DNA from: Desulfoplanes formicivorans
GTDB taxonomy: Bacteria; Desulfobacterota; Desulfovibrionia; Desulfovibrionales; Desulfomicrobiaceae
Assembly: GCF_001748225.1 (NCBI RefSeq)
Contig: NZ_BDFE01000015.1
Coordinates: 186,001 to 250,000 of the forward strand
DNA: 64,000 bases
Direction of reading: 5' to 3'
Position numbers and translations under genes: made by a program. The first letter of the stretch is position 1; each line of letters starts with the position of its first letter. The notes below the pieces were generated by a model. It ran no database searches. It had not been told where the DNA came from and worked only from the letters and a program-made list of their open reading frames with translations. Positions 13,208 to 24,509 of the stretch are shown in pieces.

Positions 13208-14026
13208 ATGGAAAAAACACGTGACATCAATGCCCGTGTAAAGGCATTGCTCCTTGACGCCAGAACCCGGGAAACCCGTAAACTTCCTGCGGAATTCGAC
13301 ATGGTTGACATGCCGCTGGAAGGCGTGGCCGCCTACTGGCTTTCCCTCAAAAAAGTTCTTGTGGAAAAGAAAAAGCCGAACCTGTTGGCAACCGAAGCCG
13401 CGCACACCAGGGAAGCCTATGTCCGGCACCTTCTCGAACTGTGTACCTCCTCCCTGGATGCGGCCTCCATCCGCTGTTTTGCCGCGGTCAAAAAAAAGGT
13501 CATTCTTGCGGATCTCCAGCGAAAATTCGTACTCATGGCCATTGCCATTCTGGGGATCGCGGACAATGAAAATCCCCAAAAGGTCATGGTTCGGTTCCTG
13601 TCCAAATTTCCCATCTCACCGGTTTTTGAAAAACAGGTTTTCGAGGTTGCTCAACTGATCATCGCCAACCTGGAGAATGCCTCGTTCAACCATCGCAAGT
13701 TCCTGGCCCTGAACCTGCGCATGAAGCCCGAAGCCATGCTCATTGTTCTGGTTGTCTTTTGCATGCTTGTCCGCCGCAAGGGGGCAGGGGGCCTTGATCC
13801 CTTTCTGCAGCATGTCCGATGCAACTATTTCAACGAGGGGTTGACCCTGATCAAGGACGGTTTCGACAAGGACTTCATCAAATACCGCCTCAACCTGCAA
13901 AAACGCGAAATCCTGGAAGAAACCGAATTGAAGATGGATATGTCCGTTGAACTTGCCCTGGCCCTGATCCGCCAGGTCACCTATGACGACATGTATCTGA
14001 TCGCCCGGTCATACATGCTTTCCTGA
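13208..14026 (+). CDS. Protein of unknown function, 272 aa, mostly helical
   Basis: I do not recognise a family. The protein is rich in charged helical segments, has no signal peptide, and has one hydrophobic stretch (about 178-191, MLIVLVVFCMLVRR) that could be a buried helix or a weak membrane segment. It follows the CheX-like gene on the same strand and may share its transcript. No clear ribosome-binding site precedes the ATG at 13208. Codon usage and the length of the frame support a real gene; a role beside CheX is inferred only from position. Confidence 0.7.
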   Translation: MEKTRDINARVKALLLDARTRETRKLPAEFDMVDMPLEGVAAYWLSLKKVLVEKKKPNLLATEAAHTREAYVRHLLELCTSSLDAASIRCFAAVKKKVILADLQRKFVLMAIAILGIADNENPQKVMVRFLSKFPISPVFEKQVFEVAQLIIANLENASFNHRKFLALNLRMKPEAMLIVLVVFCMLVRRKGAGGLDPFLQHVRCNYFNEGLTLIKDGFDKDFIKYRLNLQKREILEETELKMDMSVELALALIRQVTYDDMYLIARSYMLS

Positions 14027-17689: not shown

Positions 17690-18544
17690 TCACGAATGCT
17701 GGTGAACCATCTTCCAAAACCGGACAGCAACCCAGTCCATGACCAGAGCCGGATTGACCCGCTTGTCCAGACGGTAAAACCCGTGGGCCAGAACATGTTC
17801 CAGCCTGTCAAAGGGAACGGGTTGGGGAATATTTTTCAGATAGCGACTTAGTTCGGTCCCGTTTTCTCCCTTGGAATAGAGGACAACGCCCTGTTGGCAA
17901 TGGAGAAGCATTTTCCTGGCCAAGTGGGCATCCACCTCGTTTTTCTTCCCGGTCCTGGCAAACCAGCCCTGACCCGTTTTCATGAAATGGATCAGGGCCT
18001 GTTCCCATTCCAGGATGTCCTTGGAGGGTGCAAAACCTTTCTGCCACGGCAGGGTAAGCACAAAGCTCCGGGAAACCAGGGTTGGCAGAAGGGTCCCCCG
18101 TTGGGGCGCCAGGAGGACAAAAACATTGCCCGGCCCAGGTTCCTCCATGGACTTGAGCAGGACATTGGCGGCAGGAGGCTCCATGTTCTGGGCCTCGGCA
18201 AGGATGATCACCCGCGTTCCCTTGCCATGGGGAGGCTGCCCCATGAGCCCCCGCACCGTGCGCACATCACTGATGAGGATCTGGGATTCCCGGCCATCCA
18301 CGATGGCCATATCCCTGAACACCTGGTCCTGTATCTGAAGACATGTGGGACAGCTGGAACACGGAGGCTGCCGGTTCGGACAATTGAGCAGTGCCGTCCA
18401 GTACTGGGCCAGGGCAAAACGGGAGGTCACGTCGCCTCCTTCCAGAAGGAGGGCGTGGGGAGGATTGCTGGCAAGACTGTCCAGGTAACGGACAATCCTG
18501 TCCTGCCCCAAAGGTCGAAGGGTGTTGCAAGAAGAATGTTCCAT
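17690..18544 (-). CDS. holB: DNA polymerase III delta' subunit (clamp-loader)
   Basis: The 284-residue AAA+-like protein has the delta' zinc-binding module C-x8-C-x2-C-x2-C (about residues 54-69), an ISDVRTVRGLMG segment and the ILAEAQNMEPPAANVLLKSMEEP box around sensor 1. Like other delta' subunits it lacks a normal Walker A motif (GGDVTSR). It helps load the beta clamp. The ATG at 18544 sits inside a near-parS sequence (18537-18552), an unusual overlap; an in-frame TTG is at 18553. Confidence 0.85.
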   Translation of the reverse strand: MEHSSCNTLRPLGQDRIVRYLDSLASNPPHALLLEGGDVTSRFALAQYWTALLNCPNRQPPCSSCPTCLQIQDQVFRDMAIVDGRESQILISDVRTVRGLMGQPPHGKGTRVIILAEAQNMEPPAANVLLKSMEEPGPGNVFVLLAPQRGTLLPTLVSRSFVLTLPWQKGFAPSKDILEWEQALIHFMKTGQGWFARTGKKNEVDAHLARKMLLHCQQGVVLYSKGENGTELSRYLKNIPQPVPFDRLEHVLAHGFYRLDKRVNPALVMDWVAVRFWKMVHQHS

Positions 18545-18552
18545 GTGAAACA
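18537..18552. promoter_or_regulatory. Near-consensus parS site over the holB start codon
   Basis: TGTTCCATGTGAAACA matches the parS consensus TGTTTCACGTGAAACA at 14 of 16 positions (differences at positions 5 and 8). The sequence lies about 9 kb from the consensus parS at parAB. Many chromosomes have several parS sites in the origin region, so this may be a secondary, weaker ParB site; it also spans the holB initiation codon. Confidence 0.45.
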
Positions 18553-18625
18553 AAATGGCGGGTTACGGTGAAAGGACGAAGAGCGTGCACAACACGCCCC
18601 TTGAACATGTGCATCCTTTCTTTCC

Positions 18626-18817
18626 TCATCTGCTCGGGGTCTTGTCAATGCAATTTTCATCCGCATGTTCCTTGCTACCAGCGTTCTGGCAGAAACGGAT
18701 GCAGAGGGGATCACACCAGGTGCCACGCCGGGCATGGCCGGAACAAACCGGGCAAGGTTTGCCAGACGGCCACCTTTCTGCCCGCACTTTCTTGTCGGGC
18801 CTTGAACAGGAAGGCAT
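18626..18817 (-). CDS. Possible small zinc-ribbon protein, 63 aa
   Basis: A minus-strand frame from ATG 18817 to TGA 18626 encodes a basic peptide with the arrangement CPVC-x9-C-x3-C-x3-C, similar in style to small YacG-like zinc-binding proteins, though the match is not close. It lies just upstream of holB on the same strand. The ribosome-binding site is poor (GGGGGAG about 13 nt upstream), and another frame (to about 18893) has a better placed site but a less convincing product. Treat as tentative. Confidence 0.4.
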   Translation of the reverse strand: MPSCSRPDKKVRAERWPSGKPCPVCSGHARRGTWCDPLCIRFCQNAGSKEHADENCIDKTPSR

Positions 18818-18984
18818 AAAAAGTTCTTGACTCCCCCGCATCCCTCGGGCATTCACAGCGCATGAATACTCCCAACCAGACTCTTTTTTCCAACGCATAT
18901 TTCTTTTTTTGGTATTATTTTGTGTTGACCTGTGGTCTGGACGGGAAGGTGTAACTTTTTATCACGCATACACATGTACCCCAA

Positions 18985-19018
18985 GGGCCGCAGGCGACAC
19001 GCCGGCGGCCCTTTTTTT
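18985..19018 (+). terminator. Leader terminator (candidate attenuator) of the aromatic operon
   Basis: GGGCCGC (18985-18991) pairs with GCGGCCC (19005-19011), with an inner GGCG/CGCC stem, followed by seven T residues (19012-19018): a textbook intrinsic terminator on the plus strand, about 60 bp before the ADH synthase start. The nearest upstream plus-strand gene ends at 14026, so the terminator most likely acts on the operon's own leader. No antiterminator or leader peptide was clearly identified; a TTGACC at 18922-18927 may be the -35 box. Confidence 0.7.
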
Positions 19019-19078
19019 CGGCCGTCGCCGTCCGCCCCGACCCGCCAACCCACCATCCGCAATTGCGGGGAGGACATC

Positions 19079-19876
19079 ATGCAGGCAGGAAAAGATCTTC
19101 GTTTGGAGCGCATCCTCAATGCCTCATCCGGAAAAACCATTCTCGTTCCCATGGATCATGGCGCCAGTCTCGGGCCCATCCCCGGACTGATTTCCCCACA
19201 CAAGGCAGTTGACAGCGTGGCCAGAGGCGGGGCCGATGCCGTACTCATGCACAAGGGACTGGTCCGTTCGGCCTATGCAGGACACGCCCGTGATCTTGCC
19301 CTGATCATCCACCTTTCCGCGTCCACGGACCTTTCCACCCGTCCCAATGCCAAACGCCTCGTGGCCACGGTGGAAGAAGCCGTCAAAATGGGTGCTGACG
19401 CCGTGTCCGTGCATGTCAACCTGGGCGACGAAACCGAATCCACCATGCTCGCGGATCTGGGCCAGGTGGCCTATGCCGCCCAGGAGTGGGGCATGCCCCT
19501 GCTGGCCATGGTATACGGACGCGGGCCCAAAATCTCCAATTCCATGGCCCCTTCGGTCGTGGCCCATTGTGCCCGGGTTGGAGAGGAGCTTGGAGCTGAT
19601 ATCGTCAAGGTCCCTTACACGGGTGATATTGATTCATTCGCCAGGGTGTGCCAAGGGTGTTCGATTCCCGTTGTCATTGCCGGCGGTCCCAAAATGGATA
19701 CCCGCGACGACATTCTGCGTATGGCCCATGATTCAGTTGCAGCCGGTGGAGCAGGGCTTTCCCTTGGGCGCAATGTCTTCCAGGATCCTGATCCCGCAAG
19801 TCTGGTCAACGCCCTTGGAGCCATTGTTCATCAGGGCCAGGGTTTGGAAAGAGCACGAACCATGCTGGCCGCCTAG
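19079..19876 (+). CDS. 2-amino-3,7-dideoxy-D-threo-hept-6-ulosonate (ADH) synthase, archaeal-type
   Basis: The 265-residue protein belongs to the DeoC/FbaB class I aldolase family. It has VPMDHGASLGPIPGL near the N-terminus, the Schiff-base region VKVPYTGD and the phosphate-binding VIAGGPK and GLSLGRNVFQ. In archaea and some sulfate reducers it replaces DAHP synthase, joining aspartate semialdehyde with a sugar phosphate product. The start at 19079 follows a GGGGAGGA site; the frame runs in further upstream through the leader terminator. DHQ synthase II follows, supporting the assignment. Confidence 0.92.
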   Translation: MQAGKDLRLERILNASSGKTILVPMDHGASLGPIPGLISPHKAVDSVARGGADAVLMHKGLVRSAYAGHARDLALIIHLSASTDLSTRPNAKRLVATVEEAVKMGADAVSVHVNLGDETESTMLADLGQVAYAAQEWGMPLLAMVYGRGPKISNSMAPSVVAHCARVGEELGADIVKVPYTGDIDSFARVCQGCSIPVVIAGGPKMDTRDDILRMAHDSVAAGGAGLSLGRNVFQDPDPASLVNALGAIVHQGQGLERARTMLAA

Positions 19877-20112: not shown

Positions 20113-21084
20113 ATGCGCCGAACCATTTATTTCAAAGCCATTCCCTTTTCCCAGGACGATGTCACCCTTGCCCTGGAGTCAGGAGTTGATGCGATTATTG
20201 CCGAACCCGAACATGTTCAGGAGATCGAAGCCCTTGGCCGCGTTGCGGTCATCCCTTCGGACGCGGTCATCTTCAAGGCACTGACGTGCAAGGACGACGA
20301 AACAGATGTTGTTGCGGCCCTAACTGCACAACGTACGGTCATCCTTGAAACCGGATGGGAAATCATTCCCGTGGAAAACATTCTGGCTCAAGAGCCTGCC
20401 CTGGGCCTTGAAGTGGATTCCCTTAACGCGGCCCGCGTTGGCGCCGGCATTCTGGAAAAGGGAGTTGCGACCCTGGTTGTTGTGCCCCAGGCCATTACCC
20501 AACTTAAAGACATTGTTCGCGAAATGAAACTTTCCCAAGGCACCGTGCTTCTTGAATCCGCGGAAATCATGGCCATCACCCCGGTGGGACTCGGCCACCG
20601 CGTATGCGTGGACACCCTGTCCCTCCTTGACACCGGTCAGGGCATGCTTGTGGGCAATACCAGCGGATTTTCCTTTCTGGTCCACGCGGAAACCGAAACC
20701 AACCCGTATGTGGCTCCACGGCCGTTTCGCATCAATGCCGGCGGTGTCCATTCCTACGCCATGCTTCCCGAAGACCGCACCGCCTATCTTGAGGAACTCG
20801 CTCCAGGCCGGGAAGTGCTCATCGTGGGCGCTGACGGCAAGGCCTCCACGGCCATTGTTGGCCGTTGTAAAACGGAAATCCGCCCCATGCTCATGGTTAC
20901 CGCCCGAATGGGCGAACGAACCGGGTGCGTTTTTCTGCAAAACGCCGAAACCATACGCCTGGTTCGGGATGACGGAACACCCGTGAGCGTGGTTCTCCTG
21001 GCTCCCGGAGATCGTATTCTCTGCCATCAGGATGCAGCAGGCCGCCATTTCGGCATGCGCATCCAGGAAGACATCCGCGAATAG
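20113..21084 (+). CDS. 3-dehydroquinate synthase II (archaeal-type AroB')
   Basis: The 323-residue protein matches 3-dehydroquinate synthase II: conserved EPEHVQEIEALG, AQEPALGLEVDSL, ESAEIMAITPVGLGHRVCVDTLSL and the C-terminal NAETIRLV region are in place. It oxidatively deaminates and cyclises ADH to 3-dehydroquinate with NAD+, and is unrelated to classical AroB. An AAGGA site and a good TATACT box at about 20084 precede it, so it may have its own promoter in the 236-bp gap after ADH synthase. Confidence 0.93.
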   Translation: MRRTIYFKAIPFSQDDVTLALESGVDAIIAEPEHVQEIEALGRVAVIPSDAVIFKALTCKDDETDVVAALTAQRTVILETGWEIIPVENILAQEPALGLEVDSLNAARVGAGILEKGVATLVVVPQAITQLKDIVREMKLSQGTVLLESAEIMAITPVGLGHRVCVDTLSLLDTGQGMLVGNTSGFSFLVHAETETNPYVAPRPFRINAGGVHSYAMLPEDRTAYLEELAPGREVLIVGADGKASTAIVGRCKTEIRPMLMVTARMGERTGCVFLQNAETIRLVRDDGTPVSVVLLAPGDRILCHQDAAGRHFGMRIQEDIRE

Positions 21085-21092
21085 GGGGGGGC

Positions 21093-22166
21093 ATGAACGA
21101 ACCTTTTGGCAAGCTCAGACACCAGATCGACGAGGTCGATTCCCAACTGCTCCAGCTTTTGAACAAGCGGGCCGCCCTCAGTCTCGAGGTGGGAACCATC
21201 AAGGCCAAAGGCAAATTTCCCATTCTCAATCCCAAACGGGAAAAGGACCTTGTCCTCAATCTGGAACGCCTTAATACCGGTCCCCTGCCCAACGAACATC
21301 TGCGCCGCATCTATCGGGAGATCATGTCCTCGTCCCGCCGGCTCCAGGCCCCCCTTACCGTGGCCTATCTTGGTCCCAAGGGAACCTTTTCCTATTATGC
21401 CGGGGTGGAGGCGCTGGGATCAAGTCTTGATTACATTCCCCAGCGTGATCTGGAATCCGTGTTCCAGGCGGTTGCCTTTGGCAAGACCCGCCTTGGAATC
21501 GTGCCTTTTGAAAATTCCCTCAACGGCGGAGTAGGGCAGAGCATGGATCTTTTTCTGCGCTATGACGTTTCCATCCAGGCGGAAACCTATTCGCGCATCA
21601 GCCATTGTCTGCACGGCAGGACCCAGGATCTTGAAAGCGTCTCCCATATATTTTCCCATCCCCAGGCACTGGCCCAATGTACCCGGTGGCTCAGGAATAC
21701 CGTTCCCCAGGCAGAACTCGTGCCCACGGTGAGTACGGGAGCTGCCGTGGAATTGGCTCTCCAACATCCGGGAGGAGCTGTCATCGGCCATGTCACGCTG
21801 GGTTCGGGAGCAACCCTGCGCTGTCTGGCCCAGGATATCCAGGACGAACCCGACAACTGGACGCGCTTTCTCATTCTCACCCGGCAACCCTATGCCGGTG
21901 AAGCCAGAGACAAAACATCCCTTTTGCTCACCCTTCCCGACAAACCCGGAGCTCTGCAGCGCGTTTTGACCATTTTTTCCGAGGCACACATCAATATGAC
22001 CAAACTGGAATCAAGACCCCTTCGTTTTGAAAAATGGAAGTACGCTTTTTTTATTGATGTCCAGGCTGATCTGAGTGTTCCTGACGCACAGCCCGTCATG
22101 GACAGGCTTCGGGATCAATCCCAGTCATTGCGTGTTCTTGGCAGCTACACCACGTGGTCCGCATGA
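21093..22166 (+). CDS. pheA: Bifunctional chorismate mutase / prephenate dehydratase
   Basis: The 357-residue protein (P-protein) has an AroQ-type chorismate mutase domain (about 1-85, with LRHQIDEVDSQLLQLLNKRA), a prephenate dehydratase domain (about 90-270, including the PFENSLNGGV motif) and a C-terminal ACT domain (ESRPL motif) for phenylalanine feedback. It converts chorismate to phenylpyruvate. It begins 8 bp after the DHQ synthase stop after a run of eight G's that can serve as ribosome-binding site, so the two are co-translated. Confidence 0.96.
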   Translation: MNEPFGKLRHQIDEVDSQLLQLLNKRAALSLEVGTIKAKGKFPILNPKREKDLVLNLERLNTGPLPNEHLRRIYREIMSSSRRLQAPLTVAYLGPKGTFSYYAGVEALGSSLDYIPQRDLESVFQAVAFGKTRLGIVPFENSLNGGVGQSMDLFLRYDVSIQAETYSRISHCLHGRTQDLESVSHIFSHPQALAQCTRWLRNTVPQAELVPTVSTGAAVELALQHPGGAVIGHVTLGSGATLRCLAQDIQDEPDNWTRFLILTRQPYAGEARDKTSLLLTLPDKPGALQRVLTIFSEAHINMTKLESRPLRFEKWKYAFFIDVQADLSVPDAQPVMDRLRDQSQSLRVLGSYTTWSA

Positions 22167-22208: not shown

Positions 22209-23537
22209 ATGCAAACCATTTCCATTACCGCTCCCGCGTCCAAATCCCTGTCCCATCGAGCCCTTATCTGCGCTGCCTTGTCAACATCCGAGGCCGTGGT
22301 CGAAAATGTCCTGGCCAGTGACGATCTGGCCCGAACCCGGGAAGGACTTGCCGCTTTGGGCGCGCGGTTTCGCCTTTCCCACAACGCCATGCATGTTCAG
22401 GGCGTGCCCACCCGTCACCTTCCAGACGATACGGTTGATCTCTTTGTGGGTGAATCCGGGACCACATGCCGACTCCTTGCCGGAGTGCTTGCCGCTTTTG
22501 CCGGCACATTCCGCATGCATGGAGCAGGGCGGATGCATGATCGCCCCATGACCGCGCTGATCCAAGCCCTTTCCCAGTGGGGGGTGTCCTTTACCTTTGA
22601 AGACAAGCAGGGATTTCTCCCTCTTATCGCCCGCAGCCCCGGCACCCTGGGCGATACCATTGCCATTGATATTTCCGAAAGCAGTCAGTTCTTGTCCGCC
22701 TTGCTTCTTGCGGCTCCATGTGCCCCAACCTCCGTGACCATCAGTCTTGCCGGGACCAAGGTGGTCTCCTGGCCGTATGTGGCCCTTACTCTTCAGGTCA
22801 TGGAAGATTTCGGAGTTCATGTTGATGTCCAGACCAAAACGGGCAATCTGTGGGAATCTGTGGACTGGCGATCCCTCAGGGCCGTCTCCCCTGAATCCGT
22901 TCGCTTTCGGGTTAAACCGCAGCAATATGTCATGGACCAGAACTATCATGTTGAAGGGGACTGGAGCAATGCGTCCTATTTTCTGGCTGCCGGAGCTGTA
23001 GGCTCCCTGCCTGTTCGTGTTCACGGCATTCGTCCCGATTCCATGCAGGGGGACCGGGCCATTCTCGACATCCTCCAAACCATGGGGGCAGCATCCGTGT
23101 GGGATGCACACGGATGCACGGTCTTTCCCTCACGCCTGACCGGCACACGGGTGGATATGTCTTTCTGCCCGGATATCGTTCCCACCGTGGCCACGGCAGC
23201 CTGTTTTGCAACCGGTCCCACCGAAATTCGGGGTGTGGCTCACTTGCGATTCAAGGAAAGCGATCGCCTGCAGGCCGTTGCCTCCCAGCTGCGTTTGGCA
23301 GGGCAGGACGTGACCATTCTGGACGACGGCCTGATTATTCATCCCAGGCCCATGCAAGCCGGAGACATGCTCTCCCTTGCAAGCTTCAGCGATCACCGCA
23401 TTGCCATGAGTCTGAGTCTTCTTGAATGCAGCGGGCGCAGGATTGTCTTTGATGACCCCGAATGCGTCTCCAAATCCTTTCCCGATTTCTGGGATCTCTG
23501 GGCCCGTATTCCCAAGGGGCACGTTGCATCTTCGTGA
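22209..23537 (+). CDS. aroA: 3-phosphoshikimate 1-carboxyvinyltransferase (EPSP synthase)
   Basis: The 442-residue protein carries the EPSP synthase hallmarks: SKSLSHRALICAAL, the GESGTTCRLLAG loop, RPMTALIQAL and the later RFKESDRLQAVASQLR and FSDHRIAMSLSLL segments. It joins shikimate-3-phosphate and PEP. In the class I inhibitor loop the usual NAGTAxR is SGTTCR here. It follows pheA by 42 bp. The ATG at 22209 lacks an obvious ribosome-binding site. Confidence 0.96.
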   Translation: MQTISITAPASKSLSHRALICAALSTSEAVVENVLASDDLARTREGLAALGARFRLSHNAMHVQGVPTRHLPDDTVDLFVGESGTTCRLLAGVLAAFAGTFRMHGAGRMHDRPMTALIQALSQWGVSFTFEDKQGFLPLIARSPGTLGDTIAIDISESSQFLSALLLAAPCAPTSVTISLAGTKVVSWPYVALTLQVMEDFGVHVDVQTKTGNLWESVDWRSLRAVSPESVRFRVKPQQYVMDQNYHVEGDWSNASYFLAAGAVGSLPVRVHGIRPDSMQGDRAILDILQTMGAASVWDAHGCTVFPSRLTGTRVDMSFCPDIVPTVATAACFATGPTEIRGVAHLRFKESDRLQAVASQLRLAGQDVTILDDGLIIHPRPMQAGDMLSLASFSDHRIAMSLSLLECSGRRIVFDDPECVSKSFPDFWDLWARIPKGHVASS

Positions 23538-23759
23538 TGCCTTTGCGCAGCGCTTTATTATGAGGCCGCGACCTCTCGGTTCTTGCCACAGGAACTCGAC
23601 AGCGGCCGGGGATGGCTGGCACCTGCGCGTTGCACGGAGCAAAAGTCATGATCACGACAGCACCTTTCCTTGGCAGCCTGACCGTCCCCAACCTGACATG
23701 GTTTGTCAGGAAATCCTTGCAAACCCATTATCATGCTGCTTGATAAGGCAGGATACCCA

Positions 23760-24509
23760 ATGATTTCACCATTTTTGCAAAAAGTGGCCATTTTCGGATC
23801 TCGCGGCAACATGGGCGGTTTTTTCATGGACCGGTTCCTGAACATTGGTCTGGATGTCTATGGATTTGATCTGCCCATGGACATCAACCTCCTTTGCCGG
23901 GTCATCCCCACGGTGGACCTGGTGCTCCTGGCCGTACCCATTCCGGCCATGGATGCGTGTCTGGCCGCAATTTCCCGCCTTTTGAAGCCGACCACCATTT
24001 TGGCTGATCTTTGTTCCGTAAAAACATTGCCCGTAAAAAAAATGCTTCAGGCCTTTTCCGGACCTGTTGTCGGCACCCATCCCCTGTTCGGACCGCAGCC
24101 GCGTGACGAGGAGCTGCGCATGGCCATCTGCCCGGCTCGAGACCCCCTTGCTGCCGAACGACTGGAAGAGGTTTGTGCCATGTGTTCCCTGACCACCTTT
24201 CGAACCGACCCCACCCGTCACGACAAGGCCATGGCCTTTATTCAGGGGCTCAATTACGTGGGAACTCTGGCCTACTTCTGCGCCCAAGACCAGGAGGACG
24301 GCCTCAGGCAATTCATTACCCCATCCTTTGCCCGACGCATGGAAGCGGCCCGGAAAATGGTGGTCCAGGACGGCCCTTTGTTCGCAGCCCTGTGCGACAA
24401 CAATCCCTTCATGGCAGCGGCCATCCGCAAACATCTGAAGATGCTTGGCCTGGCCGCTGCCGGGGATTACGAACTTCTCCGGGACAAGGCTCTTCACTGG
24501 TGGCAATAA
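23760..24509 (+). CDS. Prephenate dehydrogenase-like protein (TyrA family)
   Basis: The 249-residue protein starts with an NAD(P)-binding Rossmann motif VAIFGSRGNMGGFF and continues with ADLCSVKTLPV and GTHPLFGP, the pattern of TyrA-type prephenate dehydrogenases, but is shorter than many. It would make 4-hydroxyphenylpyruvate for tyrosine. An ATG at 23733 and TTG at 23703 are in frame upstream; 23760 is preferred because GGCAGGA sits at good spacing. It comes after aroA with a 222-bp gap in which I see nothing else. Confidence 0.85.
   Translation: MISPFLQKVAIFGSRGNMGGFFMDRFLNIGLDVYGFDLPMDINLLCRVIPTVDLVLLAVPIPAMDACLAAISRLLKPTTILADLCSVKTLPVKKMLQAFSGPVVGTHPLFGPQPRDEELRMAICPARDPLAAERLEEVCAMCSLTTFRTDPTRHDKAMAFIQGLNYVGTLAYFCAQDQEDGLRQFITPSFARRMEAARKMVVQDGPLFAALCDNNPFMAAAIRKHLKMLGLAAAGDYELLRDKALHWWQ

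Follow-up and report, generated by a model that had tools for sequence, protein, structure and literature searches.

The closest described systems are the Phe leader attenuators (RF01859; E. coli pheA and pheST), in which a leader peptide with aromatic codons is combined with an antiterminator in or after its ORF and a terminator before the biosynthetic gene. A leader may also serve several end products at once, as in the multivalent ilvGMEDA attenuator, where a single leader peptide carries codons for several amino acids sharing a pathway. The locus studied here lies in a 64,000-nt stretch of Desulfoplanes formicivorans contig NZ_BDFE01000015.1 (the whole stretch is hereafter called the window). 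It has the layout of the Phe leaders, but its codons are for Phe, Tyr and Trp rather than for Phe alone, and it would control the archaeal-type entry to the shikimate pathway. It resembles the ilvGMEDA leader in being multivalent and differs from it in the aromatic nature of the amino acids, in the operon and in sequence.

A putative attenuator has been listed at the same position, ahead of the orthologous D. vulgaris supraoperon aroA'-aroB'-aroQ-pheA-aroF-tyrA-[trp], among Merino's predictions (Table 7 of Song et al. 2005, PMC1173090). That paper gives it as a predicted structure and nowhere speaks of a 'leader peptide'; its passages dealing with this attenuator contain no analysis of conservation, codon content or paralogues. 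We found no description of the leader peptide in the open-access literature. The kind of mechanism is textbook and its sensing principle is not new; the trivalent aromatic leader, its phylum-wide conservation, the isozyme-specific leaders, the Trp enrichment with trpE and the tyrA-embedded attenuator apparently are.

The leader region and its operon

The features of the locus, all on the plus strand, are as follows.

18827-18832, +, possible -35 element TTGACT, weak, kept in the aligned sister genome
18862-18954, +, leader peptide ORF MNTPNQTLFSNAYFFFWYYFVLTCGLDGKV, stop codon at 18952-18954, kept in the sister genome and most related loci
18876-18882, +, strand 1 (CCAGACT), pairing with 18934-18940 in protector helix 1:2 (MFE fold; swap test over 143 loci)
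18898-18921, +, eight consecutive aromatic codons Y-F-F-F-W-Y-Y-F, predicted stall site
18929-18938, +, strand 2 (CCTGTGGTCT), antiterminator partner of strand 3, inside the 3' part of the ORF (pairing, covariation)
18983-19018, +, intrinsic terminator, hairpin 18983-19013 followed by U7 at 19012-19018 (fold; covariation of helix 3:4)
18985-18994, +, strand 3 (GGGCCGCAGG), common to antiterminator and terminator (pairing, covariation)
19020-19026, +, possible strand 5 (GGCCGTC), with complementarity to strand 4 exceeding that of shuffled and swapped controls
19067-19073, +, Shine-Dalgarno-like GGGGAGG of the ADH synthase gene
19079-19876, +, ADH synthase gene, first of the operon (ATG at 19079; TIGR01949, above cutoff)
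20113-21084, +, 3-dehydroquinate synthase II family gene
21093-22166, +, chorismate mutase/prephenate dehydratase gene
22209-23537, +, aroA (EPSP synthase) gene
23703-24509, +, prephenate dehydrogenase-like gene (tyrA), C-terminus KALHWWQ

The terminator hairpin, AAGGGCCGC-A-GGCG-ACA-CGCC-G-GCGGCCCTT, lies 60 bp 5' of the ADH synthase start and has a stem of about -25 kcal/mol, in agreement with an earlier note on this DNA, which had described a strong intrinsic terminator at this place. It is not listed by a simple terminator scan, presumably because its stem is interrupted. The same note had found no plus-strand gene for almost 5 kb upstream, and indeed the nearest gene-like plus-strand ORF ends at 14026; the gene closest to the leader on its 5' side, a holB-like gene (17690-18553), is on the minus strand, in the opposite orientation.

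The note had gone on to suggest attenuation by a possibly new sensing mechanism, as it recognised no leader peptide rich in aromatic codons. The absence of such a peptide, and with it a new sensing mechanism, is not supported, since the leader ORF, which starts 38 bp before the interval that the note had named, carries YFFFWYYF, the only run of at least five aromatic codons in the six frames of the whole window. Only one in 2000 dinucleotide shuffles of the region reached eight aromatic codons in 10. The sister genome L003 (Desulfoplanes sp.), the nearest named relative (83% identical at ADH synthase), has a leader ending in NAYFFWYYFMWTCGLDGLV and a stop codon, with strand 2 and the terminator identical to those of the window. 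No clear Shine-Dalgarno sequence precedes the leader ORF of the window; a Shine-Dalgarno-like 4-mer is present before 68 of 142 leaders in related loci. A promoter scan gave no convincing consensus promoter upstream of the leader: TTGACT was not assigned as a promoter, a convincing -10 element being absent, and TGGTATTAT has a mere resemblance to an extended -10, as its letters are the W-Y-Y codons of the leader. The missing Shine-Dalgarno sequence and promoter are points against the attenuator reading given below.

Competing helices and their conservation

Folding of 18840-19080 had been proposed in the note as a search for an antiterminator. The region folds 3.25 sd better than its dinucleotide shuffles and does contain one: strand 2, which starts 7 nt past the last aromatic codon, forms 10 bp with strand 3, that is, with the terminator's 5' arm. 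When folding is constrained by a ribosome on the aromatic run and the nascent transcript ends before strand 4, helix 2:3 forms; a ribosome placed at the stop codon masks part of strand 2, and the terminator is made by the full leader. At equilibrium, the full leader favours the terminator with the ribosome in either state. Since the terminator (-25.4) exceeds the bare antiterminator helix (-14.6) in stability, the switch must work kinetically, with the outcome fixed before strand 4 exists. Known attenuators likewise decide kinetically, before the last strand of the terminator has been synthesized.

We then compared loci drawn by ADH synthase similarity (near-duplicates among them), counting a leader as aromatic when at least 6 codons in 10 were aromatic at no more than 400 nt upstream of ADH synthase. 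Such leaders are found at 146 of 173 Desulfovibrionales loci, as against 32 of 1730 shuffles and 10 of 964 random windows, and at 37 of 57 loci of other Desulfobacterota, as against 22 of 570 shuffles. Nearly all Desulfovibrionales loci have the same layout, namely a short ORF with an aromatic run, a tail reading (A/S/T)CG(R/L) or ARG, a stop codon and a GC-rich terminator. By rule, an intrinsic terminator lies between leader ORF and first gene at 142 of the 146 loci, a rule that missed some hairpins lacking a U-run (L111, L140, L144, L146 and L163). The aromatic leader is absent from about 20 loci of other Desulfobacterota; at L212, L221 and L241-L243, ADH synthase is probably operon-internal, as an ORF stops some 30-45 nt upstream of it. 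No leader was found at L002, a paralogue with 42% identity, or at the archaeal locus L082.

The competing helices are conserved as pairings. Among 136 distinct loci, strand 2 pairs with its own terminator arm at -19.6, compared with -17.6 for swapped arms (sd of swap means 0.17) and -11.1 for shuffled ones. In a 144-row alignment of leaders, the covariation check put forward in the note, helix 2:3 reaches 90.8% pairing, compared with no more than 45% in slid registers, and shows two-sided changes at 6 of its 10 pairs (67 cells; shuffle mean 24, maximum 34), and the terminator helix 3:4 covaries as well; kinship of the rows inflates these swap and shuffle contrasts, an effect that touches the between-class change of strand 2 least. 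Among the remaining Desulfobacterota, strand 2 frequently reads GGTCTGCCCAC, which encodes GLP or VCP, opposite a strand 3 reading GTGGGCAGACC; the sequences have changed and the pairing is kept. Protector helix 1:2, present in the MFE fold, gives -22.1 for own and -18.4 for swapped partners (sd 0.28, 143 loci), a support weaker than that of helix 2:3 owing to broad search regions. What was found is thus a short leader ORF in which codons for the amino acids of the operon stand in tandem, an intrinsic terminator between this ORF and the first gene, a covarying antiterminator in competition for the 5' arm of the terminator, and a protector helix; leader conservation, the fit of strands 2 and 3 and covariation give attenuation, as suggested in the note, strong comparative support.

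Two further features were observed among these loci. In Desulfovibrionales, the segment just 3' of the terminator matches strand 4 as a pairing partner beyond expectation (-19.1 for own partners, -14.5 after shuffling and -17.25 after swapping, sd 0.19); this segment, 19020-19026 in the window, and its equivalents are transcribed only after the termination decision. In eight loci of other Desulfobacterota (L182, L190, L196, L197, L218, L219, L234 and L238), a second hairpin with a U-run follows the first; its 5' arm resembles strand 3, and strand 4 could pair with it. Serial alternating hairpins are known from his-type attenuators, which these leaders resemble in having two serial hairpins with interchangeable arms; they differ in their aromatic codons and in being known from sequence alone.

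Of the alternative explanations, the one that survives best, and we consider even this one very improbable, is that the hairpin marks the 3' end of an independent small RNA or of a stray transcript and that the operon promoter lies between 19018 and 19079. The lack of a convincing promoter 5' of the leader and the weak, sub-threshold matches to small-RNA families that span it would suit such an RNA. However, the ORF, its aromatic run, strand 2 and the terminator are kept as a unit before ADH synthase across the order and much of the phylum, and a terminator with no connection to the leader would have no need of a partner that covaries with it within an aromatic reading frame. We rejected an independent small RNA or stray terminator because leader and terminator are conserved together with ADH synthase.

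Still less likely is nascent-peptide arrest of the TnaC or SecM type, where the peptide itself would stall the ribosome on a free amino acid. The (A/S/T)CG(R/L) tail after the run, conserved in Desulfovibrionales, might suggest it, but since the tail is GLP or VCP outside this order with RNA pairing retained, its conservation is explained by strand 2; moreover, the order of F, Y and W within the run varies freely among species, unlike in an arrest peptide. Finally, that a riboswitch, a T-box or a protein-binding leader is the sensor and the ORF incidental has nothing in its favour beyond the existence of alternative structures and can be given hardly any credence, as the conserved element is the aromatic ORF with strands 2-4, little RNA is conserved elsewhere, and Rfam gave no T-box or riboswitch match at gathering in the window or with E up to 10 in 18780-19090. 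This absence, in line with the note, which recognised neither, fits ribosome-mediated attenuation. Rfam matches to known families are sub-threshold and do not identify the leader; Phe_leader (RF01859) has its best alignment, a weak one, at 18896-19018, with 17.3 bits and an E of 1.8, which falls short of the gathering score of 55 bits and does not make the leader a member of that family under the Rfam rule.

Leader codons, gene content and paralogues

Codon content follows gene content. Where the operon includes trpE, Trp codons are present in all 28 distinct leader segments (mean 1.71), compared with 31 of 41 leaders (mean 0.76) where no trpE was detected over at least 7 kb. Some genomes carry a second ADH synthase gene that stands alone. 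There, the leader of the operon copy is mixed, and that of the stand-alone copy is Tyr-only (YYYY; genera g17, g21 and g34) or Phe-only (FFFFF; g22, g23 and others). Leaders are mixed in 112 of 113 operon copies and mono-aromatic in 24 of 29 stand-alone copies (Fisher p = 3e-21, uncorrected for relatedness). The single exception, L065, was a wrong-frame choice as a Phe-only operon leader, its leader being mixed. This match of Trp codons with trpE and of mono-aromatic leaders with stand-alone copies supports the attenuator reading. In the ADH synthase tree, copies with Tyr leaders form one clade (SH-aLRT 97) and those with Phe leaders require one to three origins, so that few evolutionary events are involved. 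No convincing aromatic leader was found for the second ADH synthases L149, L161 and L167. At L170, L171 and L172, a tandem pair of ADH synthase genes lies behind a single mixed aromatic leader.

Separate tuning of duplicate first enzymes has a well-known counterpart in the DAHP synthase isozymes AroF, AroG and AroH, controlled separately by TyrR and TrpR. Here too, duplicate first enzymes would be tuned to different aromatic amino acids, with specificity residing in leader codons rather than in repressors.

Another regulatory site may exist in the closest relatives, where trpE follows the prephenate dehydrogenase gene, whose product has WWW(W)R in its C-terminal tail (junction loci L244-L256, L030, L145 and L171). 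Of 33 junctions in which the two genes are separated by 60 nt or more, a terminator precedes trpE in 28. Its arm pairs with the DNA just 3' of the Trp codons, which lies mostly within the dehydrogenase gene (-18.6 for own partners, -14.2 for swapped ones, sd 0.49). Junctions that lack trpE, or in which trpE overlaps the gene before it, show no pairing of this kind. The junction is probably an internal Trp attenuator using the Trp-Trp-Trp tail of prephenate dehydrogenase as its leader peptide. As the tail is also present without trpE (three W in six residues in 24 of 38), the protein feature seems to have been co-opted. At the counterpart in the window (24480-24509), tyrA ends in HWWQ, glnA is next and there is no such terminator. 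In this genome, the trp operon is relocated: trpE is located at C17:387657, away from the aromatic operon, and is preceded (L176:1009-1418) by two tandem Trp leaders, which contain NLWWWHG and AWLWWWLF, with a terminator after each; the sister genome (L260) has a similar leader pair before trpE.

Proposed mechanism and significance

We conclude with high confidence that the locus is a classical ribosome-mediated transcription attenuator, whose trivalent aromatic leader peptide would report the charging of Phe-, Tyr- and Trp-tRNA; transcription of the operon very probably depends on the speed of the ribosome on YFFFWYYF. RNA polymerase would transcribe the leader with a ribosome trailing behind. 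When charged tRNA-Phe, -Tyr and -Trp are ample, the ribosome would clear the run, reach the stop codon and cover strand 2, letting strand 3 pair with strand 4, and transcription would end at about 19018. If any one of the three charged tRNAs is short, the ribosome would stall on the run and strand 2, left free, would pair with strand 3 as soon as this is made, so that the terminator is blocked and the genes from ADH synthase to prephenate dehydrogenase are transcribed. Without translation, strand 1 could capture strand 2, termination being the default. From the sequence we infer translation of the leader, stalling, the amino-acid response, the default-off state and the promoter.

A broader hierarchy of translation-coupled attenuators over the archaeal-type aromatic pathway of Desulfobacterota is rather likely, comprising Phe+Tyr+Trp leaders on operons, Tyr-only or Phe-only leaders on duplicate ADH synthases, and an internal tyrA-tail attenuator where trp genes follow tyrA. 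Published expression data fit one transcription unit, the mechanism itself being outside their reach: the genes listed for DESAMv2_21548-21557 in D. hydrothermalis change in parallel (by about log2 -2.9 to -3.9; PMC4162548), and in D. desulfuricans, nitrate or NO induces the aromatic genes, no explanation being given (PMC5701242). The attenuator may bear on unexplained shifts such as the latter. Duplicated first enzymes provide a natural experiment, in which leader codons vary with the role of the gene copy, and if the tyrA-trpE case is true, an enzyme's own C-terminus would act as the amino-acid sensor for downstream genes. In sulfate reducers, the attenuator would provide a concrete mechanism by which the synthesis of aromatic amino acids is controlled.
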